From assembly GCA_946406015.1 (NCBI GenBank), contig CAMJJD010000018.1:1-34504 (forward strand): 34,504 bases of DNA. The letters run 5' to 3'. Both the position numbers and the translations under genes were made by a program. This DNA is from an uncultured Bacteroidales bacterium (lineage in GTDB: Bacteria > Bacteroidota > Bacteroidia > Bacteroidales > P3). The notes below the pieces were generated by a model. That model had not been told where the DNA came from. It saw nothing but the letters and a program-made list of their open reading frames with translations, and ran no database searches. Shown here in pieces: positions 7,757-29,798 of the stretch. Every line of letters starts with the position of its first letter. The first letter of the stretch is position 1.

Positions 7757-9072
7757 CAGATCAACTCTACGAAACTTATCTGCGCTCACGTACCGTCACC
7801 ACCGACTCGCGCAATATCACCCCCGGTTGCCTCTTCTTTGCCTTCAAGGGCGAACGGTTCGACGGCAATGCTTTTGCACCGCAAGCGCTGGAGCAAGGGG
7901 CCGCCCTCTGCGTCATCAGCGACCCACAATACAAGGTCGACGACCGCTGCATCCTGGTCCCCGACGTGTTGGCCGCCCTGCAGGATCTGGCCCGCGAACA
8001 CCGCCGCCACCTGACCATCCCCGTCGTCGGCATCACCGGCACCAACGGCAAGACCACCACCAAAGAACTCGTCCACGCCGTGCTGGCCAAGCGGTATAAA
8101 ACTTCGGCCACCAAAGGCAACTTCAACAACCACCTGGGGGTGCCGCTGACGCTGCTCTCCATCCCTGCGAACACCGAAATCGCCATCGTCGAGATGGGTG
8201 CCAACCACCCGGGCGAGATAGCCTTCCTCTGCGGCATCGCCGACCCTGACTGTGGCCTCATCACCAACGTGGGGCGTGCCCACCTCGAGGGCTTTGGCTC
8301 GTTCGAGGGAGTCATCCAAACCAAGACGGAACTCTACCGCCACTTGGCCGCAAAGGAAAGCACCGTCTTTGTCAATGCCGACAATCCAATATTAATTAAG
8401 AATTTAGAATTAAAAATTAAGAATATTGTCAGATATGGCAAGGGAGAGAACGCCCAGGTTCGCGGTACTTTGGTCAACTCCGAACTCCGAACTCCGAACT
8501 CCGAACTCTCCAGCCCCTACCTCCATTTTTACTTCGAAGTGGGCGACAACGTCTACAATGTGCGCACCCACCTGCTGGGCGCCTACAACTTCGACAACTG
8601 CATGGCCGCTGTCGCCGTGGGCTTGCATTTCGGCGTCGAGCCTTGGGACATCAAGGAGGCCATTGAGGAATATGTACCATCCAACCAGCGCTCCGAATAC
8701 CGCGAGACCGCCCGTGGCAACCGCCTCTACCTCGACTGCTACAACGCCAACCCATCCAGCATGGCCGCCGCCATTGAAAGTTTCAAGAACATGGGAGGCA
8801 CCCTAGCCATTATAGGCGGAATGCACGAACTCGGTGCCGAAGAGTGCAAAGAGCACGAGCGTGTGGTGGCTCAGCTTGAAGCCTGCCACCTCGACCAAGT
8901 GCTGCTTGTCGGATCCGAATGGGCTCCGCTCTCCCATCCCGCCAATATGCTGCTTTTCCCCGACACCGAGGCTGTGACCGCCTACCTCAAGGAGCACCCT
9001 GTCAGCGGCGCCACCATCCTCGTCAAAGGCTCCAACACCAACCGCCTCTGGACGCTGGAAGAGATGCTTTAA
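7753..9072 (+). CDS. murF: UDP-N-acetylmuramoyl-tripeptide--D-alanyl-D-alanine ligase MurF
   Basis: A 439-residue Mur ligase that adds D-Ala-D-Ala to the muramyl tripeptide in the cytoplasm, the last soluble step of peptidoglycan precursor synthesis. The N-terminal domain has TVTTDSRNITPGCLFFAFKG. The ATP P-loop is GITGTNGKTTTK (about residues 93-104). EMGANHPGEI and NVGRAHLEGFGS follow, and the C-terminal domain has DCYNANPSSM. The start at 7753 overlaps the preceding stop. Two repeat-encoded segments lie at about residues 214-226 (LIKNLELKIKN) and 242-253 (NSELRTPNSELS), within the central domain; relatives usually have only a short loop there. Both keep frame, so the enzyme is presumably active. 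Confidence 0.93.
   Translation: MTDQLYETYLRSRTVTTDSRNITPGCLFFAFKGERFDGNAFAPQALEQGAALCVISDPQYKVDDRCILVPDVLAALQDLAREHRRHLTIPVVGITGTNGKTTTKELVHAVLAKRYKTSATKGNFNNHLGVPLTLLSIPANTEIAIVEMGANHPGEIAFLCGIADPDCGLITNVGRAHLEGFGSFEGVIQTKTELYRHLAAKESTVFVNADNPILIKNLELKIKNIVRYGKGENAQVRGTLVNSELRTPNSELSSPYLHFYFEVGDNVYNVRTHLLGAYNFDNCMAAVAVGLHFGVEPWDIKEAIEEYVPSNQRSEYRETARGNRLYLDCYNANPSSMAAAIESFKNMGGTLAIIGGMHELGAEECKEHERVVAQLEACHLDQVLLVGSEWAPLSHPANMLLFPDTEAVTAYLKEHPVSGATILVKGSNTNRLWTLEEML
8394..8424 (+). repeat. AT-rich heptad repeat inside murF
   Basis: Four heptamers, AATTAAG, AATTTAG, AATTAAA and AATTAAG, plus a partial fifth. The 19 nt at 8406-8424 recur exactly at 9088-9106 in the spacer after murF. Confidence 0.85.
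8476..8510 (+). repeat. AACTCCG heptad repeat inside murF
   Basis: Four perfect AACTCCG units (8476-8503) and a fifth with two changes. Three units equal seven codons, producing the peptide repeat NSELRTP. Confidence 0.9.
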
Positions 9073-9075
9073 GAG

Positions 9076-9110
9076 AATTAAGAATTAAGAATTAAAAATT
9101 AAGAATTAAG
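9076..9110. repeat. AATTAAG heptad repeat downstream of murF
   Basis: Five heptamers, four of them AATTAAG and the middle one AATTAAA. It starts 3 nt after the murF stop codon. A related shorter stretch occurs at 9971-9985, after the next gene. Confidence 0.88.
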
Positions 9111-9124
9111 GTATTACTAGACAT

Positions 9125-9168
9125 CCCCTATGGGAAATATCTCATGATATCCCGTAGGGGTTTTCTAT
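9125..9168 (+). terminator. Intrinsic terminator of murF
   Basis: CCCCTATGGGAAATAT (9125-9140) pairs with ATATCCCGTAGGGG (9147-9160) with one T-G pair, followed by TTTTCTATT. Confidence 0.65.
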
Positions 9169-9236
9169 TAATAACTATTCCATTAAAAAAAAATCACCCC
9201 GTTTCAATTTTCAACTCTCAATTATCAACTTTTTCG

Positions 9237-9244
9237 TATCTTTG
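9237..9244 (+). promoter_or_regulatory. -7 element for the leader upstream of 9471
   Basis: TATCTTTG at 9237-9244 predicts a start near 9251. No clear TTTG lies 19-21 nt upstream. Confidence 0.5.
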
Positions 9245-9250
9245 CCTCGC

Positions 9251-9376
9251 AAACACAAACAGACAACCATGCGTTAAAGTACACATAGTCATCATTTAAG
9301 CACACACAAGACCGTTAAAAAGCCTCTGAAAAGAGGCCGAAGAGGGAGGTTTATGCGGTTTTGTGTGTGCTTTTTT
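9251..9376 (+). ncRNA. Candidate small RNA or attenuated leader ending in a strong terminator
   Basis: A stem AAGCACACACAA/TTGTGTGTGCTT (9298-9309 with 9361-9372) closes with T6, giving a clear intrinsic terminator. Inside it are GACCG/CGGTT and a perfect GCCTCT-GAAA-AGAGGC hairpin, followed by a purine-rich AAGAGGGAGG that could pair with CCTCT as an alternative fold. The transcript from the promoter at 9237 would be about 125 nt. A gene begins about 95 nt after the terminator, so this may be a riboswitch-like attenuator or a free small RNA. Only a trivial three-codon ORF lies in it. I cannot name a family. Confidence 0.45.
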
Positions 9377-9470
9377 GTTGTGCGCTCTTTGACATAGTAC
9401 CCTGACAACAACCCAGCGGACCCGCCGTTGCCTCCTCTCCTTCTATTTTTAATTAAAAAACACAGTAACC

Positions 9471-9977
9471 ATGGAAAGAGACAAAAGAATCCGAATCAAC
9501 AAACGCATGATGGCCTGGAGCAACGGCCAACGAACAAATGTCATACCCAGTGTGTGGTGTCAGGTAGACGACTACGGACGTACACTTGTCAACTACCACC
9601 GAACCTTGCGCGAGGGTGACGAGAACTATATGACCTGCACCATTATCCGCGAGGAATGCCAATGCCGCGAATACGAAGCCGACCGCTATTGGGATCGGGG
9701 GCACCACCTCAAAGCCCTCAACCAAATGATTGATGCCGCCATGATGGTGCTGCCCGACGAGAGTGTCGACATCCAGTTCGAAGATGCACAGTGGCTCAAC
9801 CCACAGGAGACCCTCTATTGGCATCCCAACGTGCGCGAGCACCTCCGCCTGATGCGCCGCTGCGAGGGCTACTGCAAGCAAGACCCGCGTCTCTGGCCTC
9901 TCCTCGAAGACAGCCGCACCTACCGCAACTACAAGAAATACCTCCACACCCTGGGACAATGGGTGCACGAGAATTAA
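9471..9977 (+). CDS. Hypothetical protein
   Basis: A 168-residue soluble protein that I do not recognise. It starts with a basic segment (MERDKRIRINKRMMAWSNGQ), then VWCQVDDYGRTLVNYHRTLR, and is rich in Trp, Tyr, His and acidic residues. The second half has three tryptophans and a cluster of Arg and Cys (LRLMRRCEGYCKQD). There is no signal peptide or membrane segment. Its codon use matches the GC-rich neighbours. It stands alone between two terminators, behind the candidate leader at 9251-9376, and its ATG is preceded by a long A-rich tract. A regulated stand-alone gene is the most that can be said. Confidence 0.6.
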   Translation: MERDKRIRINKRMMAWSNGQRTNVIPSVWCQVDDYGRTLVNYHRTLREGDENYMTCTIIREECQCREYEADRYWDRGHHLKALNQMIDAAMMVLPDESVDIQFEDAQWLNPQETLYWHPNVREHLRLMRRCEGYCKQDPRLWPLLEDSRTYRNYKKYLHTLGQWVHEN

Positions 9978-9991
9978 AAATTAAAAAAGAA

Positions 9992-10039
9992 AAGGAGATA
10001 AGACTTTTGCACCGATGGGCACATTTGTCTTATCTCCTT
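9992..10039. terminator. Terminator hairpin between 9471 gene and hbd
   Basis: A 13-bp perfect inverted repeat, AAGGAGATAAGAC (9992-10004) with GTCTTATCTCCTT (10027-10039), in the convergent spacer. Either transcript could be stopped here. Confidence 0.6.
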
Positions 10040-10067
10040 ATCTACTTAACTCCTGTCTACTAAACTA

Positions 10068-10904: not shown

Positions 10905-10983
10905 AGTAACATAAATTTATTTGTAAGACTATTATTTCTTTTCACACGAATGCTCATGAATATCCATTAATACTTATCTGAAT

Positions 10984-11013
10984 ATTTATGGTTATTTATG
11001 GTCATTTATGTTA
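10984..11013. repeat. Decamer tandem repeat between crt and hbd
   Basis: Three decamers: ATTTATGGTT, ATTTATGGTC and ATTTATGTTA. It fills part of the 119-nt spacer between the two genes. Confidence 0.65.
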
Positions 11014-11023
11014 AAAACAAGAT

Positions 11024-11800: not shown

Positions 11801-11852
11801 ATTCTATTTATTGCTTGAATGTTTTAATGCTCTATTGCTTGAGTTGCGACTG

Positions 11853-11883
11853 CAAAATTACGAAAAAAGGATGATATGGCAAA
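11853..11883 (-). promoter_or_regulatory. Promoter of crt-hbd
   Basis: Minus-strand TTTG (11883-11880), 19 nt, TAATTTTG (11860-11853). The predicted start site is about 45 nt before the crt ATG. Confidence 0.6.
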
Positions 11884-11983
11884 ATATTTTCTCTGAACCA
11901 AAAACAATTCGTATCATCGCACCGTGAAAACGATATGATTGAAATGACCCATGCCGCTCTCCTTTCGACGATTGTCAATCGGT

Positions 11984-12031
11984 ATTTCTTCGGTATTTCT
12001 TCGGTTTAAACCGAAGAAATACCGAAGAAAT
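11984..12031. repeat. Perfect 48-bp palindrome built from an 11-nt repeat
   Basis: Each 24-nt arm contains two copies of a CGGTATTTCTT-type undecamer, and the arms meet at TTT/AAA with no loop. It lies between the end of cca and the crt promoter and could act as the cca terminator. Its loopless symmetry is more like a recombination-born or protein-binding site. Confidence 0.85.
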
Positions 12032-12075
12032 GACGTAAAATAGTGAGAGAGAAGCGGAAGAGGAGGGCGGACGGG

Positions 12076-13764
12076 CTACTCTTTGGAGGGATGCAGGCCC
12101 AGGTCAGCGGCGAGGCGGAGCATCATCTGCCAGGCGGCATCGCGGTCGTTGGGTATCTGGCCGTCGAGGATGGCATCCTTGATGGCATCCTTGATAGTGC
12201 CTATCTCACGGCAGGGTCCGATGCCGAAGGTGTCCATGATGTCCTGACCCGAGACGGGAGGCTGGAAGTTGCGTATGCGGTCGCGCTCCTCCAACTCGAC
12301 GAGTTTGCGCTTCACCAATTCGAAGTTGGCCTTGTGACGACGCACCTTCTCGGGGTTCTTGCTGGTGATGTCGGCGTTGCAGAGGAGCATCAGGTCGTCG
12401 ATATCGTCGCCTGCCTCGAAAAGCAGACGACGCACGGCGCTATCGGTCACCTCCTCTTCGCTGAGCACGATGGGGCGCATGTGGAGCATGACAAGCTTCT
12501 CCACATAGCGTTCTTCCGCTCCCAGCGGCAGACGCAGGCGCTTGAAGATGCGCTTCACCATGTGGGCGCCACGGGCCTCGTGGCCGTGGAATGTCCAGCC
12601 CTGTTTGGCGTCGTAGCGCTTCACGCCGGGTTTGCCGACATCGTGAAGGAGGGCGGCCCAACGGAGCCAGAGGTTCCTGTCAATCTCCCGCTTGTCGGCC
12701 AAGCCGACGCCATAGCACGCGAAATCTTGGAAATCCTGTAAATCCTCTTGATTCTTTTCTGATTTCAAAGATTTGTTGGATCCGTCAGAATCTTGGAAAT
12801 CTTTAGGGGAATCATTTCCAGAATCTCCAGGATTTCCGCCGGAGGCGGGGAGACATAAGTTGTCCAGGACCTGCATGGTGTGGTAGAAGATGTCCTTGTG
12901 ACCGCGGCCGTCGACGGTTTCGATACCTTGAAGGGCCGAAATCTCTGGCAGGATGAGCTGCATGAGGCCGCATTTCTGCATCAGCTTGAGTCCGACACTG
13001 GGCACAGGCGAGAGCATAATCTTGTTCAGCTCGACCATCACGCGCTCAGCACTGACAATCTCAATGCGCTTGGCATTGCGACCGATGGCCTCGAAGGTGT
13101 CGTCGGCGATGCGGAAACTCAGCTGCGAGGCGAAGCGGACGGCCCGCATCATGCGCAGGGGGTCGTCGGAGAAGGTGACATCAGGGTCGAGGGGGGTACG
13201 GAGGATGCCTTCGTTGAGGTCGCGTATGCCGCCAAAGGGGTCCATCAGCTCGCCATAGCGGTCTTCGTTCAAACACACCGCCAAGGCGTTGACGGTGAAG
13301 TCGCGCCGGCGCTGGTCGTCCTCGAGGGTGCCGTTCTCGACAATGGGCTTGCGGCTGTCGTGGGAGTAACTCTCACGACGAGCTCCAACGAATTCAAGCT
13401 CGTATTCTCTAACCGAAAAATCTTTATCTCTAACCGAACTATCCGAATGAATCTGAATTCGGTCTGGTTCGGATGATTCGGTTAGATGCTTATGGTCGGG
13501 TGTGTAACGAAACGAGGCGGTGCCGAAGGTCTTGAACACCGAAACCTTGGAACCGCCGACAGCGGCGGAAACGGCCTTGGCCAGCTCGATGCCTATATGC
13601 ACCTCGCCACCTTCGTCGTGACCGATGCAGACCACGTCGATATCGGTGCAGGGGCGCTGCAGGAAATAGTCGCGCACCACGCCGCCTACCGCATAGGCGT
13701 CCACACCCATACGGTCGGCCTCACGTCCGATGACACGATAGATATCCAACCCCAGGTCAATCAT
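12076..13764 (-). CDS. cca: CCA tRNA nucleotidyltransferase with HD domain
   Basis: A 562-residue protein that adds or repairs the CCA end of tRNAs. The head domain has GGVVRD (27-32) and the metal-binding pair DID (41-43). RRRDFTVNAL and DPLRMMRAVRFASQL are the following class II signatures. An HD domain has ALLHDVGKPG (about 371-380). Two segments without counterpart in the usual core enlarge it: about 88-120 and 304-362. Both are repeat-encoded and low in complexity (SVRDKDFSVRE; DFQDSDGSNKSLKSE; EDLQDFQDF) and lie in loops between conserved blocks. The start ATG directly abuts the stop of the MORN-like gene, indicating co-transcription. Confidence 0.92.
   Translation of the reverse strand: MIDLGLDIYRVIGREADRMGVDAYAVGGVVRDYFLQRPCTDIDVVCIGHDEGGEVHIGIELAKAVSAAVGGSKVSVFKTFGTASFRYTPDHKHLTESSEPDRIQIHSDSSVRDKDFSVREYELEFVGARRESYSHDSRKPIVENGTLEDDQRRRDFTVNALAVCLNEDRYGELMDPFGGIRDLNEGILRTPLDPDVTFSDDPLRMMRAVRFASQLSFRIADDTFEAIGRNAKRIEIVSAERVMVELNKIMLSPVPSVGLKLMQKCGLMQLILPEISALQGIETVDGRGHKDIFYHTMQVLDNLCLPASGGNPGDSGNDSPKDFQDSDGSNKSLKSEKNQEDLQDFQDFACYGVGLADKREIDRNLWLRWAALLHDVGKPGVKRYDAKQGWTFHGHEARGAHMVKRIFKRLRLPLGAEERYVEKLVMLHMRPIVLSEEEVTDSAVRRLLFEAGDDIDDLMLLCNADITSKNPEKVRRHKANFELVKRKLVELEERDRIRNFQPPVSGQDIMDTFGIGPCREIGTIKDAIKDAILDGQIPNDRDAAWQMMLRLAADLGLHPSKE
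12721..12837 (-). repeat. Nonamer-like repeat inside cca (insert 2)
   Basis: On the plus strand units such as GAAATCTTG, GAAATCCTG and TAAATCCTC follow at 9-nt spacing. Related but decayed units continue to AGGATTTCC at 12829-12837. The peptide is rich in Asp, Gln, Ser and Phe. Confidence 0.65.
13405..13503 (-). repeat. Repeat-encoded insert 1 inside cca
   Basis: The 12-mer TCTCTAACCGAA occurs at 13406-13417 and again at 13427-13438; TTCGGTTAG near 13478 is its inverse. The insert splits the block that normally joins FGTASFRY to ELEFVGARRESY. Confidence 0.6.
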
Positions 13765-14351: not shown

Positions 14352-15455
14352 TCAGTCGATGGACTCATAGAGGTGGCCGGGCAAGACGCGCACCACCTTC
14401 TGCATTTCAAGGTTGAACAGGATTGATGCCACACGCGGCATCGGGAAGCCGCTAAGCCCCACAAGCTCGTCGATGGAGAGCTGCCGCCCTTGCTTCAGCA
14501 AGCCGTACAGACGTTGTTCATCGGACGACAGCTGGGGCAACAAGGAAGTCTGCGAATCGGACAACCCGGCCTGCCGACGAGGCCATCCCATATAGTCGGC
14601 GATGTCGTCGGCGTCGCGCACCATCTGGGCACGCTGGGTGGCAATCAGTGTGTTGGTGCCACGCGAGTAGGTGTCGGTGAGACGTCCGGGCACAGCGAAC
14701 ACCTCGCGGTGGTAGCCGGCGGCGATGGCGGCCGTGATGAGGGCGCCGCCCTTGTCCGAAGCCTCCACAACGAGCGTTGCGTCGGACATCGCGGCTATGA
14801 TGCGGTTGCGGGCGGGGAAAAAGCGCGGGTTGATGGCAGTACCACTGGGATACTCTGTCACCAATGCCCCACCCTGCTCCAGAATCCGCTTGGCCAGCGG
14901 CCTGTTGGAAGAGGGATAGATACGGTCAAGCCCGTGACCCAGCACAGCCACAGTCGGCAACCCATGTTGGAGTGCAGCAGTATGTGCCGCCGTGTCAATA
15001 CCATAGGCCAGGCCGCTGACGATGGGCAGGTCCAAATATTGCAGCTGTTCCACCAGGCGGTCGGTGGTGTCGCGCCCCTGGGAGGTGGCGCGGCGCGTGC
15101 CGACGACAGACAGCATGCGTTCCGCATTGAGATTGGCTGCGCCGAGGACATAGAGCACAACAGGACAGTCCTGCGTCTCTTCGCGGTTGAGGCGCGTGGG
15201 ATATTCGGCATCGGTGCAGAACAACACTTTGATACCGTTGTGTTCGCAGAACTTCAGTTCTTCCTCGGCACGCGCATGGGTGGCCTTGGACAGAATGGCC
15301 TCGAGCGGCTGAAGGTGACTGCCAAAAGCCAGCTTCAACTCGTTTGGCGGCAGAGAGAAGATATCCTGGCCGGGATAGGCATCGAGCAGCTTGCGGCAAC
15401 TGGTAGGTCCCAGGCCCGGAATCATGGAGAGGGCTATTTGGCTGACTGCATCCAT
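14352..15455 (-). CDS. dprA: DNA-processing protein DprA
   Basis: A 367-residue DprA, which loads RecA onto single-stranded DNA taken up in transformation. A helix-hairpin-helix comes first (ALSMIPGLGPTSCRKLL). The Rossmann-like core has VVGTRRATSQGRD, SGLAYGIDTAAHTAAL, VLGHGLDRIYPSSN, RFFPARNRIIAAMSD and FAVPGRLTDTYSRGTN. A small winged-helix-like C-terminal domain (SIDELVGLSGFPMPRVAS) follows. A longer reading frame extends to 15602, but it only overlaps the Nudix gene in another frame, so I choose the ATG at 15455, where MDAVSQIALS begins. This start overlaps the end of the Nudix gene by 22 nt. Confidence 0.92.
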   Translation of the reverse strand: MDAVSQIALSMIPGLGPTSCRKLLDAYPGQDIFSLPPNELKLAFGSHLQPLEAILSKATHARAEEELKFCEHNGIKVLFCTDAEYPTRLNREETQDCPVVLYVLGAANLNAERMLSVVGTRRATSQGRDTTDRLVEQLQYLDLPIVSGLAYGIDTAAHTAALQHGLPTVAVLGHGLDRIYPSSNRPLAKRILEQGGALVTEYPSGTAINPRFFPARNRIIAAMSDATLVVEASDKGGALITAAIAAGYHREVFAVPGRLTDTYSRGTNTLIATQRAQMVRDADDIADYMGWPRRQAGLSDSQTSLLPQLSSDEQRLYGLLKQGRQLSIDELVGLSGFPMPRVASILFNLEMQKVVRVLPGHLYESID

Positions 15456-15922
15456 TTCGTAGAGAGTGTTTTCAAGGTGCCGTAACTGCCCTGCAGGCGA
15501 CGGTACCACTCGTCGGGAGTGACCCACACAACCTCGGTGATGCCCTCTTCGCCCTGCGGTTTCCCTACCGGCTTCCTGCCGGCGACATGGGCGTCGAACC
15601 ACGAAGTCTGCTTCAGGTGCCAGCCGCCGTAAAGGTTGAAGGTGTGATAAGTTTTAATGGGTAGTGGATAGCGGGTAGTGGGTAGCGGGGCAATGCCCGT
15701 CTCTTCCTCCACCTCGCGGAGAGCAGCTTGAAGGAGGGTCTCGCCTGATTCCACTTTGCCTTTGGGCAGGTCCCATCGGCCGTTGCGAAGGATGAGGAGC
15801 ATGTTGCCCGCATCGTCGTGCACCACGCAGCCGGCGGCACGCACCCACCGCATGCGACGCTTCAGACAGCGCAGCCACCGCAGCGGAAGATTGAAAGTAT
15901 GGTATTTATAGCTGACTTTCAT
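15434..15922 (-). CDS. Nudix hydrolase
   Basis: A 162-residue protein with a complete Nudix box, GKVESGETLLQAALREVEEE followed by TGI (about residues 55-77), which binds divalent metal and hydrolyses nucleoside diphosphate-linked substrates. The exact substrate cannot be read from sequence. Directly after the box lies a low-complexity stretch PLPTTRYPLP, encoded by four GGGTAGT-type heptamers, where relatives have a short strand connection. It overlaps the META lipoprotein gene by 4 nt (ATGA) and dprA by 22 nt. Confidence 0.88.
   Translation of the reverse strand: MKVSYKYHTFNLPLRWLRCLKRRMRWVRAAGCVVHDDAGNMLLILRNGRWDLPKGKVESGETLLQAALREVEEETGIAPLPTTRYPLPIKTYHTFNLYGGWHLKQTSWFDAHVAGRKPVGKPQGEEGITEVVWVTPDEWYRRLQGSYGTLKTLSTKWMQSAK
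15659..15690 (-). repeat. GGGTAGT heptad repeat inside the Nudix gene
   Basis: Plus-strand units GGGTAGT, GGATAGC, GGGTAGT and GGGTAGC, then GGGG. It is in frame and codes for PLPTTRYPLP-type sequence on the minus strand. Confidence 0.85.
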
Positions 15923-16491: not shown

Positions 16492-16530
16492 CTGTTCTTT
16501 TACTGTTCTTTTACTGTTCTTTTAGTTTTG
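16492..16530 (+). promoter_or_regulatory. Putative promoter with three 11-nt tandem repeats
   Basis: CTGTTCTTTTA occurs three times exactly (16492-16502, 16503-16513, 16514-16524). The last copy provides the TA of a -7 element TAGTTTTG (16523-16530). The upstream promoter element must therefore lie inside the repeats. It would serve the glycosyltransferase at 16705, leaving a leader of about 165 nt in which I see no gene. Confidence 0.5.
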
Positions 16531-16704: not shown

Positions 16705-17838
16705 TTGGAGAAAGAGAACAAGGGACGCATCGTGATGGCTGTGAGCAACGACCTGCTGACTGACCAGCGCGTGGACCGCCACCGTCGGACACTGACGGAG
16801 GCGGGTTTTGACGTTGTGGTCTTAGGTCGGCTCGATGTGCCCACACGCCACCGTCGCGGATGGCGGTTCTACCTGGAGCTGAACCGCGGCCTGCGCCGCA
16901 AGGTGGCGGAGCAGAAGCCCGACATCGTTTGGGCCAACGACACCGACACCCTGCTGGGATGCTACCTTGCCGCCAGACGCTGTCGCGCCAAGCTGGTGAT
17001 GGATGCCCACGAACTCTTCCCCGAGGTGCCCGAGATACAGCACAAGCCGCTAGTGAAGTGGGTGTGGCGCACGCTGGAGCGGTGGCTGATGCCAAAATGC
17101 GACGCCCTGCTGACAGTGTGCAACAGCATCGCCGAGTACTACCGGCTGCAACTGGGTGTGTCGATGACGGTGGTGAGAAATATCAGCCTCACCCCCTACC
17201 CCTCTCCGATTGGAGAGGGGGGTAGTCGGCAAGGGTATCCACTCCCCTCTCCCCTTGGAGAGGGGCTGGGGGTGAGGCTGCTGCTCTACCAAGGCAGAGT
17301 GAACCTGGGGCGCGGAGTGGATTGGGCTATCGACGCGCTGGAATGGCTTCCGGAATGCCGTCTGGTGGTGGCCGGCGACGGCGACCTGCTGGAGGAAATG
17401 AAGGCCTATGCCGCCTCGAAGCCGTGGAGCGGACGCATCTCGTTCACCGGACGCCTGATGCCGGAGGAGATGCACGCGCTGACACCGCAGGCCGACGTGG
17501 GGCTGGTGATGCTGGAAGACATGGGGTTGAACTACCATTACGCACTGCCGAACCGCATAGGCGACTTTGTGCAGGCGGGCGTGCCGATGGTGGTGAGCGA
17601 CTTGCCGGAGATGGCGGCGGCGGTGAAACGCTACCGCATCGGCGAGGTGATGCGCGAACCGGGTGCCCAGGCGCTGGCCGACAGCATACGCAAAGTGCTT
17701 GCACTCGGCAAGGACCGCTACAATTTCAACCAAGCGCGAAGCGATATGGACTGGAACAAAGAAAAGGACAAACTGCTTGATTGCGCCAATGCGTTAATGC
17801 TTGAATGCAGACGCAACAAGCACTCACACAGTTATTGA
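16705..17838 (+). CDS. GT4-type glycosyltransferase
   Basis: A 377-residue cytoplasmic glycosyltransferase with the two-Rossmann layout of family GT4. The N-terminal strand is RIVMAVSNDLLTDQRVDRH, followed by KPDIVWANDTDTLLG and KLVMDAHELFPEVPE. The C-terminal domain has LLLYQGRVNLGRGVDWAIDA, LVVAGDGDL and ALPNRIGDFVQAGVPMVVSD. It probably builds a surface polysaccharide or glycolipid; donor and acceptor are unknown. The start TTG at 16705 is preferred since the first strand begins before the ATG at 16735; no Shine-Dalgarno decides it. A palindromic insert splits the two domains at about residues 160-192. The last residues are encoded by a 50-nt tandem repeat. Confidence 0.83.
   Translation: MEKENKGRIVMAVSNDLLTDQRVDRHRRTLTEAGFDVVVLGRLDVPTRHRRGWRFYLELNRGLRRKVAEQKPDIVWANDTDTLLGCYLAARRCRAKLVMDAHELFPEVPEIQHKPLVKWVWRTLERWLMPKCDALLTVCNSIAEYYRLQLGVSMTVVRNISLTPYPSPIGEGGSRQGYPLPSPLGEGLGVRLLLYQGRVNLGRGVDWAIDALEWLPECRLVVAGDGDLLEEMKAYAASKPWSGRISFTGRLMPEEMHALTPQADVGLVMLEDMGLNYHYALPNRIGDFVQAGVPMVVSDLPEMAAAVKRYRIGEVMREPGAQALADSIRKVLALGKDRYNFNQARSDMDWNKEKDKLLDCANALMLECRRNKHSHSY
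17184..17280. repeat. 97-bp palindromic element inserted in frame in a glycosyltransferase gene
   Basis: Outer arms CAGCCTCACCCCC (17184-17196) and GGGGGTGAGGCTG (17268-17280) enclose two perfect 9-bp hairpins of the same sequence, CCCCTCTCC/GGAGAGGGG, at 17199-17220 and 17244-17265. It translates to SLTPYPSPIGEGG...PLPSPLGEGLGVRL. The placement in the linker between two Rossmann domains, and in frame, suggests insertion of a mobile palindromic element. Confidence 0.8.
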
Positions 17839-22209: not shown

Positions 22210-23367
22210 ATGAAGATACTCGTACTGCTACCGCGATTCCCCTACCCTCTCGACAAGGGCGACAAGCTGCGTGCCTATCACCAGATTGTCGAGCTGGCAA
22301 AGCAGCACGAGGTCTATCTCTTCGCCCTATCACACAACAAGGTGAAGCACGACGACTACGACCACCTCCACACCCTATGCACAGCCGTCGACTACGTGCA
22401 AATCCGTTGGTGGGAGAGCTTGTGGGGAATACTCAAGGCTTTTTTCAATGGCAAACCGCTACAACTAGGCTATTGGAGTTCACGCCGGGCACGACGGGCC
22501 TACCGCCAATGGGAGCGGCAGGTGCAACCCGACGTGGTCTACTGCCAGATGGTGCGCACCATTCCCACCGTCGAAGGCTCCCGCTGCCGCAAGGTGCTCG
22601 ACTTCCAAGACGCCCTCTCGCTCAACACCCGTCGCCGCATGGAACGCTCAAAAGGCTTGATGCGGATAGTGTTGAAGTATGAGCACAAAGCCCTGCAACG
22701 TGTGGAGCAGGAAGCGCTGACCCTCTTTGACGCCACCACTGTCATCAGCGCTGTCGACCGCGACGCCATCGACCCCTCGGTGCACCTCGTCCCCAACGGC
22801 GTCGACACCGACTACTTCAACACTAAACACTTAACACTAAACACCAGACACTATTCAATAGTCTTCACCGGCAACATGGCCTATGCACCCAATGTCGATG
22901 CGGCCTGCTGGCTGGTGAAAGAAATTATGCCGCTGGTATGGAAGCAATGCCCCTATGGCATAAAAGTGCTAATTGCTGGAGCCGACCCCAAACCGGCCGT
23001 CAAAGCATTGGCCAGCCCCAAAGTCACCGTCAGCGGCCGTCTGGACGACATCCGCGAGGCCTATGCCGCCGCCAGCATCTTTGTCGCCCCCATGCGCATC
23101 GGCTCGGGGATGCAGAACAAGCTGCTCGAAGCCATGTCGATGGGCTTGCCGTGCGTCACCACATCTCTGGCCGCCTCCCCCTTGGGAGCCACCCCTTGGG
23201 AGCACCTGCTTGTCGGCGACAGCGCCGCCGAACTGGCCGACCTGATAGTGAAACTCGGCACCGACGAGCTGCATCGCTCCATCGCCGACGCCGGCCACCG
23301 CTTCGTACAGGAGCGCTATGCTTGGCCTGCCGCCGTCGAACCCCTCGAATCAATACTCACACATTAA
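22210..23367 (+). CDS. GT4-type glycosyltransferase (TIGR03087-like)
   Basis: A 385-residue glycosyltransferase. The start ILVLLPRFPYPLDKGDKLRA is characteristic of a GT4 branch that includes TIGR03087 proteins. VVYCQMVRTIPTVEG, VVPNG-type LVPNGVDTDYFN, IVFTGNMAYAPNVDAACWLV, VLIAGADPKP and VAPMRIGSGMQNKLLEAMSM follow, the last with the family Glu that binds the sugar nucleotide. The role is in an unknown surface glycan. Residues NTKHLTLNTRHY, just after the NGVD motif, are encoded by a heptad repeat. The stop codon lies in an octamer repeat. The gene starts 3 nt after parC and is surely co-transcribed with it. Confidence 0.85.
   Translation: MKILVLLPRFPYPLDKGDKLRAYHQIVELAKQHEVYLFALSHNKVKHDDYDHLHTLCTAVDYVQIRWWESLWGILKAFFNGKPLQLGYWSSRRARRAYRQWERQVQPDVVYCQMVRTIPTVEGSRCRKVLDFQDALSLNTRRRMERSKGLMRIVLKYEHKALQRVEQEALTLFDATTVISAVDRDAIDPSVHLVPNGVDTDYFNTKHLTLNTRHYSIVFTGNMAYAPNVDAACWLVKEIMPLVWKQCPYGIKVLIAGADPKPAVKALASPKVTVSGRLDDIREAYAAASIFVAPMRIGSGMQNKLLEAMSMGLPCVTTSLAASPLGATPWEHLLVGDSAAELADLIVKLGTDELHRSIADAGHRFVQERYAWPAAVEPLESILTH
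22819..22853 (+). repeat. AACACTA heptad repeat inside a glycosyltransferase gene
   Basis: Units AACACTA, AACACTT, AACACTA, AACACCA and GACACTA in register, five in all. It lies in frame in the loop between the two Rossmann domains. Confidence 0.85.
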
Positions 23368-23400
23368 CGCATTAACACATTAACGCATTAACACATTATA
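23361..23400. repeat. Octamer tandem repeat between two genes
   Basis: ACATTAAC and GCATTAAC alternate for four units, and a fifth, ACATTATA, ends the series. The first unit carries the stop codon of the glycosyltransferase gene, and the array ends 2 nt before the next ATG. Confidence 0.85.
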
Positions 23401-23402
23401 TT

Positions 23403-24260: not shown

Positions 24261-24283
24261 CAACCCACCCAAACATATCTAAA

Positions 24284-24309: not shown

Positions 24310-24341
24310 TTGTCCCTCCCCAACCGCCATGGAAAATAAAT

Positions 24342-24372
24342 TTTGCCACCTCGCAGAATTGTCGTATCTTTG
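24342..24372 (+). promoter_or_regulatory. Promoter of the structured leader and small lipoprotein
   Basis: TTTG (24342-24345), 19 nt, TATCTTTG (24365-24372), a full consensus match. The start site would be near 24379. Confidence 0.68.
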
Positions 24373-24378
24373 CAGTCG

Positions 24379-24991: not shown

Positions 24992-25058
24992 AACAAATGA
25001 GTATTATGCAACAACAAATTGTCTTTAAATCATGATTCTGGGGCCATAATATGAGCGG

Positions 25059-25083
25059 GGCCCGCGACGTTCCGTCGCGGGCC
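25059..25083. terminator. Strong GC-rich terminator between the lipoprotein and pheT
   Basis: GGCCCGCGACG (25059-25069), loop TTC, CGTCGCGGGCC (25073-25083): an 11-bp perfect stem in a convergent spacer. T-rich sequence is modest on either side. Confidence 0.65.
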
Positions 25084-25105
25084 TAATTCATATTGTATTG
25101 GCTTG

Positions 25106-27604
25106 TTATCCGCGGATTTTCGCGCCCAGCTGGGTCTCGAGGGTCTTCTGAATCTTGGCCATGGTAGCCTCAATCTGTTTGTCGTTGAGGGTCTTGTCCT
25201 TGTCTTGCAGGATGAAGCTGACGGCGTAGGACTTGAAGCCTTCGGCGATGCCTTTGCCCTCGTAGACGTCGAAGAGATTGACGCTCTTGAGCAACTTCTT
25301 CTCGCACTGCTGGGCAGCTTGCTCGACTTGGGCGAAGGTGACATCTTTCTTCAGAACGAGGGCCAAGTCGCGGCGCACCTCGGGGAACTTGGCCACCTCC
25401 TGGTAGAGCACCTCCTTGGTGGGGTACTCCTTGAGGAGGAGCGTCCAGTTGAGGTCGGCATAGAAGACGGGCTGCTTGATGTCCATCTTCTTCAGCGTCT
25501 CGCGGCCGATGCGGCCGAGGGTGCCCAGCAGCTTCTTGCTGTCGCGCTGGATGATGTCGAGGCCTTCGGCGAAGAACTTGTACTGCGTCGGCACCATCTC
25601 CACGCGGCCCATGTTGACGCGCATGCGGTGCAGGATGTCCATGACGTAGGCCTTGAGGTAGAAGAAGTCGGTCTCGGCGGACTTCATCTTCCAACTCTCG
25701 GGCGTCATGTTGCCGGTCATGAAGATGCTGACATGCTCAGTCTCGTTAAAGCGCTTGGTGACCGGCAGCTCCTTAAGGTCACTAGAGTCCTTAAGGTCTT
25801 TAAGGTCAGCCTTCACATAGCTCCTGCCGAACTCGTAGAGCTTCTGGTCGAGGATGCGGAAGTTGATATTGCGGGCGATGCACTCGAGGCCGCTGTAGAG
25901 CAGCGTCTGGCGCATCACGTTGAGTTCCTTCGAGAGGGGGTTGAGTATCTGCACACAACGGTCGGCCGGGAAGTCGGGGTTGTCGTCGTATAGTTCACTC
26001 TTGGTGAGCGAATTGTTCATAATCTCGCTGAAGCCGTTGTCGGTGAGGTAGTCGCTGACGGCGTTCTTCAGCTTGCGCGGGTCGGGCTTCTTGCCGTAGG
26101 AGAGGCAGCTGTTGACGGTCTCGCCGATGTGGATGTTGTTGTAGCCGTAGATGCGCATGATTTCCTCCACAATGTCGCACTCGCGGGTGACGTCGGCCTT
26201 GCAGGTGGGCACCTTCAAGGTCATGCCCTCGGCGGTCTCGTTGACTATCTCGATGTCCAAAGAGGTGAGAGCGGTACGGACGGCCTCCAGCGGGATGTCC
26301 TGACCCACAAGGTCGAACATGCGGCGGAAGTTCACCTCCACGACGGGCTTCTCGATGGGCTTCGGGTAGAGGTCAACCATCTGGCCGCAAATCTCGCCGC
26401 CGGCGAGTTCCTGGATGAGCTTCACAGCGCGGCGCAGGGCCCACTCGGTGATGTTGGGGTCGCAGGTGCGCTCGTAGCGGTAGCTGGCGTCGGTCTTCAG
26501 GGTGTGGCGCTGGCTGGTCTTGCGGATGCTCACGGGGTTGAAGAAGGCGCTCTCGAGGAAGACGTTCTTGGTCTCCATGGTGGTGCCGCTCTTCAGGCCG
26601 CCGAAGACACCGGCGATGCACATGCCTTCCTGCTCATTGCATATCATGAGGTCGCGGGCGTCGAGGGTGCGCTCCACGCCGTCGAGGGTGACGAACTTGG
26701 TGCCTTGCGGCAGACGCTTCACGATGACGTGTCCGCCGGCAATCTGGTCGGCGTCGAAGGCGTGCAGAGGCTGACCCACCTCCATCATGACGAAGTTGGT
26801 CACATCCACCACATTGTTGATGGGGCGCAGACCCACGGTGCGCAGGCGGTTCTGCAGCCACTCGGGGCTCTCCCCTACCTTCACGTTGCGCAGCGTGATG
26901 CCCGTGTAGCGCGGGCAGAGGTCGGGCTCCTCGACGGTCACCTTGATGGGCTCGCCGGAGGCTTTGGGGGTAAGGTCAGCAGCAACCTCCGGCCACTTAA
27001 TCTTCAGCTGTTTCCCTTCGCGGGTATTGCGGACAGCCACCACGTCGCGGGCCACGCCGATGTGCGAGATGGCGTCCATGCGGTTGGCGGTGATGGCCAC
27101 CTCGAGCAGGCAGTCGTCCTTCACGTGGAAGTATTCCTTGGCGGGCATTCCCACGGGGGCGTCGTCGGGCAGCACCATGATGCCGGCGTGGTCGGTGCCG
27201 AGCTGCAGCTCGTCGGCAGCGCAGAGCATACCCTCGCTGACGGCGCCGCGCAGCTTGCCTTTCTTAATCTCGTAGTATTCGGTATCCGAGGTGTATATCT
27301 TGGTACCTATCTGGGCACACACCACCTTCTGGCCGGCGGCCACGTTGGGGGCGCCGCAGACGATGTTCAGCGGACGCTCGCCGCCCACGTCGACAGTGGT
27401 CAGGTGCAGGTGGTCGCTGTCGGGGTGCGGCTCGCAGGTCAGCACCTGCGCTATCACCACATGCTCCAGACCGCCCTTGATGGTCTCCACCTTCTCCATG
27501 CTGTCCACCTCCAGGCCGGAGAAAGTCAGCAGGTCGTCCAGTTCCTGAGGAGTCATATCCTCAATATCCACATACTCTTTAAGCCAATCAAAAGAAATAT
27601 TCAT
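25106..27604 (-). CDS. pheT: Phenylalanine--tRNA ligase beta subunit
   Basis: An 832-residue PheT, which with PheS charges tRNA-Phe. The N-terminus MNISFDWLKEYVDI and the tRNA-binding EMAP-like domain (HVVIAQVLTCEPHPDSDHLH) come first. The B3/B4 region has NVVDVTNFVMMEVGQPLHAFD. The B5 part has EIMRIYGYNNI. A catalytic-like core and the C-terminal FDX-ACB domain (FPEVRRDLALVLKKDVTFAQ) follow. All expected domains are present. A 12-residue repeat-coded stretch, LKDLKDSSDLKE, lies in the core at about residues 600-612, made by a 9-nt tandem repeat. pheS is not adjacent, as is common in this phylum. Confidence 0.95.
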   Translation of the reverse strand: MNISFDWLKEYVDIEDMTPQELDDLLTFSGLEVDSMEKVETIKGGLEHVVIAQVLTCEPHPDSDHLHLTTVDVGGERPLNIVCGAPNVAAGQKVVCAQIGTKIYTSDTEYYEIKKGKLRGAVSEGMLCAADELQLGTDHAGIMVLPDDAPVGMPAKEYFHVKDDCLLEVAITANRMDAISHIGVARDVVAVRNTREGKQLKIKWPEVAADLTPKASGEPIKVTVEEPDLCPRYTGITLRNVKVGESPEWLQNRLRTVGLRPINNVVDVTNFVMMEVGQPLHAFDADQIAGGHVIVKRLPQGTKFVTLDGVERTLDARDLMICNEQEGMCIAGVFGGLKSGTTMETKNVFLESAFFNPVSIRKTSQRHTLKTDASYRYERTCDPNITEWALRRAVKLIQELAGGEICGQMVDLYPKPIEKPVVEVNFRRMFDLVGQDIPLEAVRTALTSLDIEIVNETAEGMTLKVPTCKADVTRECDIVEEIMRIYGYNNIHIGETVNSCLSYGKKPDPRKLKNAVSDYLTDNGFSEIMNNSLTKSELYDDNPDFPADRCVQILNPLSKELNVMRQTLLYSGLECIARNINFRILDQKLYEFGRSYVKADLKDLKDSSDLKELPVTKRFNETEHVSIFMTGNMTPESWKMKSAETDFFYLKAYVMDILHRMRVNMGRVEMVPTQYKFFAEGLDIIQRDSKKLLGTLGRIGRETLKKMDIKQPVFYADLNWTLLLKEYPTKEVLYQEVAKFPEVRRDLALVLKKDVTFAQVEQAAQQCEKKLLKSVNLFDVYEGKGIAEGFKSYAVSFILQDKDKTLNDKQIEATMAKIQKTLETQLGAKIRG
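25772..25807 (-). repeat. CTTAAGGTC nonamer repeat inside pheT
   Basis: Units CTTAAGGTC, ACTAGAGTC, CTTAAGGTC and TTTAAGGTC at 9-nt spacing on the plus strand. Each is exactly three codons, giving DLK-DLK-DSS-DLK on the coding strand. Confidence 0.85.
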
Positions 27605-27652
27605 ATATGTATCAATTTATTATCAATAGTATATACACTTTGCATTATTCTG

Positions 27653-27683
27653 CAAAGGTACTACATTTTTTTCAAACAACAAA
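27653..27683 (-). promoter_or_regulatory. Promoter of pheT
   Basis: Minus-strand TTTG (27683-27680), 19 nt, TACCTTTG (27660-27653). The start site would be about 40 nt before the pheT ATG. Confidence 0.6.
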
Positions 27684-27698
27684 AACAAAAATTAACTT

Positions 27699-27835
27699 CT
27701 ATAGCCCTTCCTTTAACAATGCGGTAAAGGCCTGTATCTTTAGAACTGCAATCTTTGGAAAATCAATAGTTGCAAGAACATCCAAGTGATGCTCTTGAGA
27801 AACAATAAACGTAGCGTTGGCATATCATTTAGTTT
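27699..27835 (-). pseudogene. Possible gene remnant in the pheT upstream spacer
   Basis: The 27605-27940 spacer holds no intact gene. On the minus strand a frame open from about 27835 to the stop at 27699 reads ANATFIVSQEHHLDVLATID then FPKIAVLKIQAFTALLKEGL. It looks like the end of a folded protein but has no start codon. A minus-strand -7 element, TATCTTTG (27916-27909), lies upstream and may once have served it. It may equally be chance. Confidence 0.25.
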
Positions 27836-27940
27836 TGTATTCATGACGCAACATGTCGGTATTTATTGTGTTGTGTGAGAATTTGACCTTCAACATATCT
27901 TCCGACTGCAAAGATACGAACATTATTTTAATTGGCATAA

Positions 27941-29278
27941 TTATTCTGCCTGTAGCTCGTAGAGGTGATACTGCTCTGTCGGCAGGGGAACCTCACGGTA
28001 GGCGTTGTCGGCGGAATAGTCGGCGGTGGTCAGCAGGTGGCGGTGACGCTCCTGGTCGCCGAGGCTCACACGGCATCCACGGTAGTAGTAGCCCTGCAGC
28101 TTGTAGTCGAAATACAGCGGCGTGGGTACCGTCACCATCTCACCACGCTCCAACTGTGGAGCGATAACCTTCATGTCGCGCTGCAGCTGAGCATCGCGTC
28201 CTTCATTGCCGAAACGGAGGACATTAAGAGCAACTGCACCCAACAGCAACGCCAGAGCAATATATTGCAACACCTTTGAGGGTTTTATCCAACGGGCGAC
28301 AGGCTCTTCTATCAACATACCTGCCAGAACCGCCACCACAGGCATCGCCGTCAGCAGGTAGAACTCGCGCTGGCGGGTGCTGACCATCATCGGCAGCACA
28401 GCGCAGGCCACCAACGCCCACATAGCCCACTGCTCACGAGAGGGCTTCTGCCCCACCCCTTTGTTGACAATAACGACCAACAGCACCAAACCAATCACGA
28501 TGGCCGTATTACGAAGGAAATCAACAATAATCTGCCAGCGATGCACTTCACCTTGCGACCATCCAGCCAGCACTTGCAGCTGCATGTAGTTTTCGAAATA
28601 TCCTCTTGACTCCGGTACCGCAAGTGCAATTACTGCAAGCGGAAGTAACACACCTCCAAGCATGCAGACGGTCTGCATCAAAGCACCTTTCTTTCTGTCG
28701 AAGAGCCAAAGTAAAACAGGCAGTACCAGCGGGAACAGTCCTGTATAGCCTTTGGTCAAGAAGGCCGCCGCCAGCAGCAGTCCCGCCAGCAGTGCGTTCC
28801 ACGCCTTTCTGTCGGGCCGCAACAACAGGAGTATCGCGCCCAGGTCGAACAGTACCATGGTGTTCTCCAGCATGCCCTGGAAGGCAAAGTGGGTGACGAT
28901 GGGAATGAGCGTCCAAAGCAGCAGCGGCATCCAACCGTTCTCGCGCTTGCCACCGAGCCGCATCCACAACTTGACGATAAGCCATGCGCACAAAAGCATG
29001 GTGAGCACCATATAGAGCTTGGTGACCCAAATATGTGTGCCCAACACCTTGTAGAACAACGCCAACAAGCCCAGCGCCAGCGGTGGATGCTGGTAGAAGT
29101 CGGGGTGGTGTGTGGCGGTGTAGACCGGGTGCCAGAACGAGCCGACACCTTCAGCCATATTGGCTGCCACATTGCTGTAGATAAGGCCATCCATGAACAT
29201 GCCCGTCGTCGTCAGCGACCCGCTGACTAGTGCCAGAAACAGCGCCACCACAGCAATATATAGGGACCAGGATTTCAC
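27941..29278 (-). CDS. GT39/ArnT-like integral membrane glycosyltransferase
   Basis: A 445-residue protein with about ten membrane helices. The first periplasmic loop reads GMFMDGLIYSNVAANMAEGV followed by FWHPVYTATHHPDFYQHPPL. The acidic D-G and the H-P-P-L motif match the PMT/ArnT (GT39, GT-C fold) family, which uses polyprenyl-phosphate sugars to glycosylate lipids or proteins on the outer face of the inner membrane. The C-terminal 100 residues form a soluble domain. The substrate is unknown. It is about 10 nt downstream of the GAF-type reductase gene, suggesting co-transcription. Confidence 0.8.
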   Translation of the reverse strand: MKSWSLYIAVVALFLALVSGSLTTTGMFMDGLIYSNVAANMAEGVGSFWHPVYTATHHPDFYQHPPLALGLLALFYKVLGTHIWVTKLYMVLTMLLCAWLIVKLWMRLGGKRENGWMPLLLWTLIPIVTHFAFQGMLENTMVLFDLGAILLLLRPDRKAWNALLAGLLLAAAFLTKGYTGLFPLVLPVLLWLFDRKKGALMQTVCMLGGVLLPLAVIALAVPESRGYFENYMQLQVLAGWSQGEVHRWQIIVDFLRNTAIVIGLVLLVVIVNKGVGQKPSREQWAMWALVACAVLPMMVSTRQREFYLLTAMPVVAVLAGMLIEEPVARWIKPSKVLQYIALALLLGAVALNVLRFGNEGRDAQLQRDMKVIAPQLERGEMVTVPTPLYFDYKLQGYYYRGCRVSLGDQERHRHLLTTADYSADNAYREVPLPTEQYHLYELQAE

Positions 29279-29288
29279 ATTACCGCAT

Positions 29289-29798
29289 TTACATCAATTC
29301 CACAAGTTGCTCCAAGTAGTGGGCATCCACCTCGTCGAAGGTACCCAGCTCGCGGCTGTCGATGTCGAGCACAGCGACGACCTCTTCTCCACAGAACATA
29401 GGCACTACTATCTCGCTGCGGCTCTCACTCGAGCAGGCAATATGCCCCGGGAATTCCTCCACGTCGGGCACCACCACCGTGCGGCGTTCCTTCCATGCCG
29501 TGCCACAGACTCCCTTGCCATAGCCGATATGCACGCAGGCCAACGGCCCTTGGAAGGGTCCTAGAATGAGGGCGGAAGTCGGAGGGCGGAGGGCGGAAGT
29601 CGCTGTCGGGGCCGCCGGCTCCAACTTCCGCCCTCCGACTTCCGGACACACCCGGTAGAAGCCCGTCCACCAGAATCCAAACTCCTGGTGCAGCAGCGCG
29701 CTGACATTGGCCATCTTGGCAATCGTGTCCTCTTCGCCCTCGCAGAGGGCCTTCACCTGCGGCAGCAGCCGCTCATATTTCTCTTGTTTGGTATCCAT
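29289..29798 (-). CDS. msrC: Free methionine-(R)-sulfoxide reductase (GAF domain)
   Basis: A 169-residue GAF-domain protein closely following fRMsr enzymes, which reduce free methionine-R-sulfoxide in the cytoplasm. The motifs LGPFQGPLACVHIGYGKGVC and GHIACSSESRSEIVVP contain the three family cysteines, here Cys 88, Cys 98 and Cys 122, and AVLDIDSRELGTFDE ends the domain. Between GFYRV and LILGPFQG, where the E. coli protein has only a few residues, about 22-25 extra residues (including TATSALRPPTSAL) are encoded by a heptad repeat with inverted copies. The active-site cysteines are unaffected. Confidence 0.9.
   Translation of the reverse strand: MDTKQEKYERLLPQVKALCEGEEDTIAKMANVSALLHQEFGFWWTGFYRVCPEVGGRKLEPAAPTATSALRPPTSALILGPFQGPLACVHIGYGKGVCGTAWKERRTVVVPDVEEFPGHIACSSESRSEIVVPMFCGEEVVAVLDIDSRELGTFDEVDAHYLEQLVELM
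29572..29645. repeat. GCGGAAG/TCGGAGG heptad repeat with inverted arms inside msrC
   Basis: Left arm 29572-29602: GCGGAAG, TCGGAGG, GCGGAGG, GCGGAAG, TCG. Right arm 29625-29645: CTTCCGC, CCTCCGA, CTTCCGG. The arms are reverse complements over 17 nt, so the insert can form a hairpin as well as a tandem repeat. Confidence 0.8.

Follow-up and report, generated by a model that had tools for sequence, protein, structure and literature searches.

The window, meaning the whole 34,504-nucleotide stretch of DNA analysed here, is a single contig of an uncultured Bacteroidales genome (G000; 2.22 Mb, 80.6% complete, 124 contigs). Its close relatives among named records come from metagenomes of rumen and hindgut and are Bacteroidales, including Candidatus Colimorpha and "bacterium P3". 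Several conserved genes in the window, among them murF and a gene for a GAF-type methionine-R-sulfoxide reductase (fRMsr), contain in-frame segments encoded by short tandem arrays or by palindromes. Two kinds of repeat that are already known are present in the window, namely simple repeats rich in heptads and elements like the Rickettsia palindromic element (RPE), both repeatedly captured in permissive protein loops. Across a clade of related species, the same loops of the same enzymes are filled with different repeats.

Shared loops filled with different repeats

We compared the loops of five orthologous proteins (MurF, fRMsr, the glycosyltransferase encoded at 22210-23367, the Nudix hydrolase and the GT4-type glycosyltransferase) in 16 species placed on a tree, where the ten-species clade holding the window's genome has an ultrafast bootstrap of 100. 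A loop was scored as filled if it contained an array scoring 9 or more at periods 7-9, or a CCTCTCC hairpin. An array or palindrome is found in 27 of the 49 readable loops of the clade versus none of the 18 readable loops of the six outside species; 50 and 30 loops were possible, respectively, and in the rest the locus was not fetched or the anchor motif was unmatched. Within the clade, arrays occur at 6.1 per kb in the loops and 0.48 per kb in the rest of the same genes, while outside the clade the values are 0 and 0.06. Of the 20 arrays beyond the five loops, some represent additional repeat inserts (G007, G002) and others ordinary repetition in coding sequence (TCATCGGCATCACCGGC motif). Loop lengths are multiples of three by construction, which carries no evidential value.

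The repeat occupying a given loop changes from species to species. In the MurF loop, G000 has AACTCCG heptads, G007 has GCCACTCA octads, and G002 and G022 have a core flanked by inverted heptad arms, while G009 and G021 carry short extra segments and the remaining aligned proteins are shorter at the same place. The fRMsr loop contains inverted heptad arms in G000, G002 and G015, a palindromic element in G004, and neither in G012, G010, G009 and G008. The glycosyltransferase loop (22210-23367) holds heptads in G000, G001 and G010, octads in G007 and a mixed insert in G002. In the Nudix loop there are heptads in G000, G012, G001, G002, G007 and G010; the heptad of G012 is similar to that of G000, and the rest are other heptads. 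The GT4 loop is occupied by palindromes in G000, G012, G001 and G004, by heptads in G002, G007, G008 and G010, and by octads in G009, with no array or palindrome detected in G015.

An earlier note on this DNA, made from the sequence alone, placed the repeat-encoded segments of seven genes at loops throughout. Predicted structures bear this out for MurF and fRMsr, and for the other five genes the placement comes from alignment only, as a variable stretch. In MurF, the AACTCCG insert lies in a turn between strands 236-240 and 256-263 (AlphaFold2 model built on an alignment of relatives), in a block with a predicted local distance difference test (pLDDT) score of 59, and makes the protein about 10 residues longer than insert-free congeners in the alignment. 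In fRMsr, the insert at residues 53-74 falls between strands 44-52 and 75-83 in a model made in the same way. The fRMsr model has 129 of 169 residues at a pLDDT of 90 or more, with means of 55 and 49 in blocks 51-60 and 61-70, and the solved relative 3mmh has about four residues at the place of the insert. The PheT protein with the 9-nt array has six residues more than its 93%-identical G012 orthologue. At the site of the AACACTA array relatives have another variable loop sequence of nearly the same length. Overall, the alignments show relatives that lack the segments of G000 or have different ones, and relatives do not share the same peptides in non-repetitive codons.

Several further observations concern these proteins. 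A murF query finds a match in 41 of 41 genomes, in some of them only to Mur-ligase paralogues, and G006 and G021 each have two close MurF-like genes. At L115:2641-2745 and L126:6068-6171, oppositely oriented heptad arrays flank an apparently conserved MurF segment, so that the loop joining the complementary arms would consist of native MurF coding sequence. The fRMsr match of G001 (L095 / L109) is broken across two frames, with stops next to the repeat segment, a pattern that a change in heptad number could cause.

Array abundance and recurrent words

Tandem Repeats Finder (TRF) recovers every array named in the earlier note, together with arrays whose units are 8, 9, 10 and 11 nt long. We also applied a stricter scan at periods 4-30, and compared the window with 30 locally shuffled windows of preserved composition. 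The strict scan finds 12 distinct array loci in the window, versus one match in total (period 15) across the 30 shuffles. It misses the AATTAAG array in murF (8394-8424) and the 9-mer in pheT (25770-25807), and sees the fRMsr and Nudix arrays as multiples only (21 and 14 nt, respectively). One of its 12 loci, a 12-mer at 12169-12195, falls in the C-terminal coding portion of the CCA-transferase-like gene and may reflect normal repetition of coding sequence. Assembly error was judged an unlikely origin of the arrays because similar inserts recur in independent assemblies: E1, a palindromic element described below, stands at one site in both G000 and G012, and an fRMsr-type insert is found in G002, L121 and L126, with those in L121 and L126 identified by flank resemblance only. 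The arrays, palindromic elements and host genes of the window are listed in Table 1.

Table 1. Arrays, palindromic elements and host genes in the window (strand "." where the feature has no assigned strand)
Position	Strand	Feature	Basis or setting
7753..9072	+	murF (UDP-MurNAc-tripeptide--D-Ala-D-Ala ligase), two repeat-encoded segments	NCBIfam TIGR01143, 369 bits
8394..8424	+	AATTAAG heptad array in murF	TRF; in relatives, a different loop sequence of almost the same length
8476..8508	+	AACTCCG heptad array in murF, encodes NSELRTPNSEL	TRF, strict scan, alignment
9074..9110	.	AGAATTA heptad array (TRF unit AATTAAG)	Spacer after murF; TRF and strict scan
10983..11010	.	10-nt array TATTTATGGT	Spacer; TRF and strict scan
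11979..12031	.	11-nt array with inverted copy forming a hairpin, TCGGTATTTCT units	Intergenic
12076..13764	-	CCA tRNA nucleotidyltransferase / poly(A) polymerase-like gene, HD domain, two inserts	
12718..12852	-	E1, RPE-like palindromic element, in-frame LPASGGNPGDSGN..DLQDFQDFA	
13399..13512	-	Second insert of the CCA-transferase-like gene, self-complementary	
15434..15922	-	NUDIX hydrolase	PF00293
15658..15689	-	Heptad array in NUDIX loop (GGGTAGT)	TRF
16492..16524	.	11-nt array CTGTTCTTTTA x3	Intergenic; TRF and strict scan
16705..17838	+	GT4-type glycosyltransferase	PF13579, PF00534
17187..17277	+	E2, palindromic element, two inner hairpins and outer arms	In GT4 gene
22210..23367	+	Glycosyltransferase, TIGR03087-like	Below model cut-off
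22819..22853	+	AACACTA heptad array, encodes NTKHLTLNTRH	TRF, strict scan
23359..23398	.	8-nt array ACACATTA/ACGCATTA	Glycosyltransferase gene end and next spacer; TRF and strict scan
25770..25807	-	9-nt array in pheT, DLKDLKDSSDLKEL	TRF
29289..29798	-	fRMsr (msrC in the earlier note)	PDB 3mmh match, PF13185
29568..29597	-	Heptad array in fRMsr, GAGGGCG/GCGGAAG-type, one arm of inverted-arm insert	TRF
32231..32260	.	TAACTCA heptad array	Spacer adjoining an open reading frame that we take, from its sequence, to encode a DinB-like polymerase; TRF and strict scan

The tendency to form short arrays extends through the genome. We sampled the window together with 20 stretches of 20 kb, or 434,504 bases of the 2.22 Mb, with two shuffles as the null. 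This sample contains 70 arrays of period 7, 21 of period 8, 5 of period 9, 3 of period 10 and 15 of period 11, with none of period 13 and 0.0 in the shuffles for each; one poly-C run is counted in the period 7, 8, 10 and 11 lists. Array numbers thus exceed those of shuffled sequence in both the window and the genome sample, and heptads dominate as the earlier note had claimed. At an array score of 13 or more, which is used for all heptad densities here, G000 has 76 heptad arrays in 434 kb. Other genomes have, per 95-100 kb, 26 (G002), 24 (G008), 15 (G007), 12 (G010), 11 (G012), 10 (G015), 7 (G023) and 4 (G009), and the clade member G004 has 2 in 40 kb. Outside the ten-species clade there are 3 in G003, 2 in G005, 4 in G014 and 5 in G011 (80 kb each) and 0 in 40 kb of G006, with 12 octad arrays in G014 and 7 in G011. 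Loci from other Bacteroidota contain 17 heptad arrays in 756 kb, 11 of them in the single locus L175, and heptads are therefore not confined to the group of the window.

While unit sequences (words) differ between sites, they are not independent of one another. The 76 heptad arrays of G000 fall into 32 unit classes, the commonest being AACACTT, AAAAGTG, AACTCTT and ACCTCCG. Within the 20 stretches, 72 heptad arrays form 31 unit classes versus about 69 for random heptads, and 92 pairs have identical units versus about 3 at random. When 191 heptad arrays from the genus and close relatives are aligned by rotation and strand, a common YYTYAAC-like pattern reaches 5.7 bits versus 4.2-4.5 with shuffled letters, although these arrays are not independent (some loci represent the same contig twice) and the pattern serves as a description, not a test. 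The earlier note had concluded from the differing units that no single mobile repeat explains the sites. This much stands, and a single mobile repeat was rejected since both unit sequences and element types differ, but the recurrence of units, the words seen in single species and the shared pattern speak against units that are independent of one another.

Some words appear to be favoured by particular species. Among 13 sampled backgrounds, each of 60-400 kb from genomes of about 2-2.5 Mb, AACTGCC was seen in G010 alone, AATGATG in G002 alone, AACTCCG in G000 alone and ACTCAGCC in G007 alone, while ACTCATC is found in G002 and at a low count in G010. The GT4, Nudix and fRMsr loops of G002 all use AATGATG or ACTCATC. 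More broadly, 11-mers of the loop segments match the background of their own genome at a mean of 0.099 versus 0.067 when permuted (p 0.0009). Of 59 congeneric genomes, 13 have an AACTCTT x2.7 array. The reversed-letter control AATTCTC is itself a heptad, present in 30 of the 59 with up to 101 matches in G044 (overlapping places included), and 25 of the 59 have neither word. At the level of the order, 9 of 295 genomes, that of the window among them, have AACTCTT arrays, yet three genomes of other families have 22-49 matches.

Arrays are scarce inside genes. Open reading frames (ORFs), called greedily at 100 aa or more and including doubtful ones, make up 89.5% of the sample, yet contain at most 29 of 76 heptad, 8 of 23 octad and 1 of 15 period-11 arrays, with a further 7 heptad, 3 octad and 0 period-11 arrays overlapping an ORF edge. 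Because doubtful ORFs are included, 29 of 76 is an upper bound, and coding copies are strongly depleted. Ten array-bearing ORFs were searched against Pfam and include NAD kinase (two arrays), dihydrofolate reductase, RsgA (two), an ABC exporter, CinA (three), HydF and methionyl-tRNA synthetase.

Self-comparison of the 434 kb yields 73 repeated segments, and the 45 listed include compound repeats with a GATAAGACAAATG core, CTAGCCCGG-type 9-mers and GACTCTTC octads. None of these 45 comes from the window, and a larger common element around every array was rejected. Compound dispersed repeats of 7- to 9-nt words, several of them around a GATAAGACAAATG-like core, lie at L014:3-419 and 3286-3538, L017:1605-1800, and L032:13534-13618 and 14474-14602. 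Arrays with an 11-nt period (window 11979-12031 and 16492-16524; L142:19459-19547; L147:4380-4471; L133:4016-4106) form a separate observation: there are 34 in 611 kb of 36 loci from close relatives, in 31 unit classes, versus 0 in 756 kb of other Bacteroidota, with L191 excluded from both groups. Most have their own unit, several are large inverted hairpins, and 14 of the 15 in the G000 sample are intergenic.

Palindromic elements E1 and E2

The larger insert of the CCA-transferase-like gene is more than an array of 9-nt units: it is a single palindromic element of about 135 bp (12718-12852), here called E1. Its DNA matches elements in other genes of other species. Among 59 congeners, 24 have some match, mostly to fragments of the arms, and there are at least seven near-full-length copies in at least six genomes, a lower bound with up to 14 candidates scored per genome. 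Five of these seven copies are open in the same orientation and frame and encode peptides like LPASGGNPGNPGN..DKSWKS..LQDFQDFAKR. Their hosts are four genes: Mfd (G009), QueG (G002), FolC (G072) and the CCA-transferase-like gene, in which G000 and G012 share the site; the Mfd and QueG fragments score below the cut-offs of their models. The other two copies have stops in all three frames of the element strand. G015 has a partial copy in its CCA-transferase-like gene, adjoining an LTPSPSP segment. Across the order, at E 1e-10 and among the matches scored (up to four per genome), only the window's own genome of 198 was matched. One copy of E1 folds with a moderate z of -2.2, and 5 of 200 shuffles fold as well. 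Judged by published descriptions, E1 has most of the defining features of an RPE.

The second, self-complementary insert of the same gene has a related stretch elsewhere in the genome (L028:8443-8525, 78% over 85 nt). Both inserts are lacking in 15 other proteins of an alignment made without G012 and G015, while G001, G007 and G010 have shorter extra segments at the place of the second.

E2, in the GT4 gene, encodes LTPYPSPIGEG..PSPLGEGLGVR following VVRN. With host genes counted, its hairpin motif occurs five times in 434 kb of G000, five times in 100 kb of G012 and once in 40 kb of G004, and was found zero times in the samples of 11 other species. Inverted pairs of arrays number 13 in 1.05 Mb, with varied spacers. 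A conserved GACGCAGCAAC-like core was considered for the inverted-arm inserts, as seen in the murF of G002 and G022, but the 13 pairs varied and we claim no consensus.

Origin of the inserts and relation to known systems

On balance, the inserts probably derive from a pool of dispersed repeats that is copied to new sites, changed by slippage and recombination, filtered for frame, and captured in parallel in permissive loops. The pool in these rumen Bacteroidales would be large and of two kinds: tandem arrays, mostly of 7-nt units and with different words favoured by different species, and palindromic elements, imperfect and some 90-140 bp long. Parts of the pool would be copied repeatedly from elsewhere in the genome into new places, presumably by an enzyme in the case of the palindromes, and the arrays would then lengthen, shorten and homogenise through slippage and local recombination. 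Most landings in coding sequence would be lost, as the depletion within ORFs suggests, while surviving inserts would keep the frame and occupy permissive loops, such that, in different species, different repeats would come to fill the same housekeeping-enzyme loops in parallel. Copying, slippage and selection together are favoured because of the recurrent words, the words of single species, the use of one word family in several genes and the in-frame dispersal of E1. The earlier note had proposed a general process filtered by frame. This is partly supported, by the genome-wide tendency towards short arrays and the filtering of coding copies, but at least one segment is a defined dispersed palindromic element.

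Several results weigh against this origin from a copied pool. The comparison outside the clade covers just 18 of 30 loops, and the species there also carry arrays, at a lower heptad density, yet none in their loops; pool size alone may therefore not explain capture. No pair of empty and filled sites close enough to define insertion junctions was found; G012, the nearest relative, shares 78-80% identity with the window's genome in MurF, both glycosyltransferases and Nudix. Just 11 of the 24 loop-unit rows reach their highest count in the sampled background of their own genome, and the other 13 do not (a count by hand on rows that are not independent, with four rows of G022 and G001 excluded because these genomes had no sampled background). 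AGGGCGG (fRMsr, G000) and AGCCCCTC (G007) occur in none of the 13 backgrounds, as growth in situ predicts, and ACTCAGCC as a word of G007 only rests on a single site. Flanking coding sequence shows a small own-genome excess as well (0.096 vs 0.087, p 0.013), and the YYTYAAC-like pattern could reflect a slippage bias instead of descent. With several loop units having no other copies in the sampled genome, purely local slippage is possible for part of the arrays. Finally, the Y1 transposase (PF01797), the only enzyme family searched, does not track the arrays: it is found in 15 of 20 genomes, absent from the array-bearing G008 and G009, and present outside the clade in G003 and G005.

Slippage in situ could instead be the whole explanation, with heptads growing from chance partial duplications, a polymerase that favours 7-nt steps, loops that merely tolerate the growth, and similar words arising from composition or slippage bias. 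Heptads are the commonest long simple repeat in most genomes surveyed, for which slippage has been proposed (Mrazek et al., 2007, as summarised in PMC4679880), the unit pattern is common across species, and the loop units missing from sampled genomes fit as well. We nevertheless find slippage alone rather unlikely, given 92 identical-unit pairs where about 3 are expected, one word family in three genes of G002, inverted arms in several inserts, and related species that differ in the word at one site. A more speculative proposal, also unlikely at present, is that a genome-wide word-copying enzyme system writes arrays of species-favoured 7- or 8-nt words into new sites, protein genes included, often as an arm, a core and an inverted arm, and so rewrites the loops of core enzymes in parallel.

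It is improbable that every segment is what remains of a transposable element with terminal inverted repeats, akin to miniature inverted-repeat transposable elements (MITEs) or RPEs, with heptad arrays as arms that have decayed or slipped. E1 is a dispersed palindrome, several species have E2 palindromes, and heptad inserts with an arm, core and inverted arm are seen in the murF of G002 and G022 and the fRMsr of G000, G002 and G015, but many arrays have no inverted partner (only 13 inverted pairs in 1.05 Mb), arms at different sites have little sequence in common, and Y1 transposases, the one family searched, do not track the repeats. This lack of correlation likewise led us to reject a Y1/RAYT transposase as driver. 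Least probable is a single gain in the clade ancestor followed by unit replacement through concerted evolution (molecular drive), which would make parallel gain illusory: 9 of 10 clade members have a repeat or palindrome in the GT4 loop, but the murF, fRMsr, glycosyltransferase and Nudix loops alternate between insert-free and filled across the tree, as do palindromic and tandem types, with (G000,G012) and (G001,G004) in separate subclades.

The earlier note knew of no formal description of such a system, and yet its components have been published. They include long simple sequence repeats (LSSRs) dominated by heptads and the TAACTGA arrays known from Beggiatoaceae, Cyanobacteria and Bacteroidetes (PMC4679880), GGGNATC arrays with Calothrix heptanucleotides cited (PMC4692102), and in-frame RPEs (Ogata, 2000, reviewed in PMC2229807 and PMC10969869). 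Sets of heptads also occur inside ORFs, mostly near protein ends, with one towards the end of purC in a Bacteroidetes species (PMC4679880). The arrays described here have units within the 5-11 nt of LSSRs and are longer than composition predicts. They resemble LSSRs and heptanucleotide repeats in that heptads dominate, arrays are short and dispersed, distribution is sporadic and arrays are depleted from coding sequence. They differ in that many words coexist in one genome, some of them seen in one species only, that 8- and 11-nt classes are also abundant, and that arrays lie mid-protein in conserved housekeeping genes, in the same loops across species.

E1 in turn matches the RPE, as characterised in those reviews, in its size of about 135-140 bp, its imperfect palindrome with inverted ends, its coding and non-coding places, and its single frame and orientation in all four genes seen. 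It differs in the host phylum, in the low copy number and in the 9-nt repeated words of its arms. The repeats are also short, non-autonomous, palindromic and dispersed like MITEs and the repetitive extragenic palindromes associated with RAYT transposases (REP-RAYT), although, unlike REP-RAYT, they are not tracked by Y1 transposases. In a literature search by title and abstract opening, with most subscription journals outside its coverage, no paper turned up that describes arrays or palindromes returning to the same loops of conserved Bacteroidales genes.

The best-described case of housekeeping proteins capturing palindromic repeats in frame is that of Rickettsia (PMC2229807, PMC10969869). The gut clade studied here has captured simple arrays as well as palindromes, both of them in the same loops of the same enzymes, and offers many species for comparison. 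This allows direct questions about how frequently proteins take up repeats, which loops tolerate the inserts and by what route a 7-nt word spreads in a genome. Odd annotated peptides such as NSELRTPNSEL, NTKHLTLNTRH and PSPIGEG can be repeat-derived and not conserved motifs. In this rumen group, genomic repeats appear to feed protein evolution.

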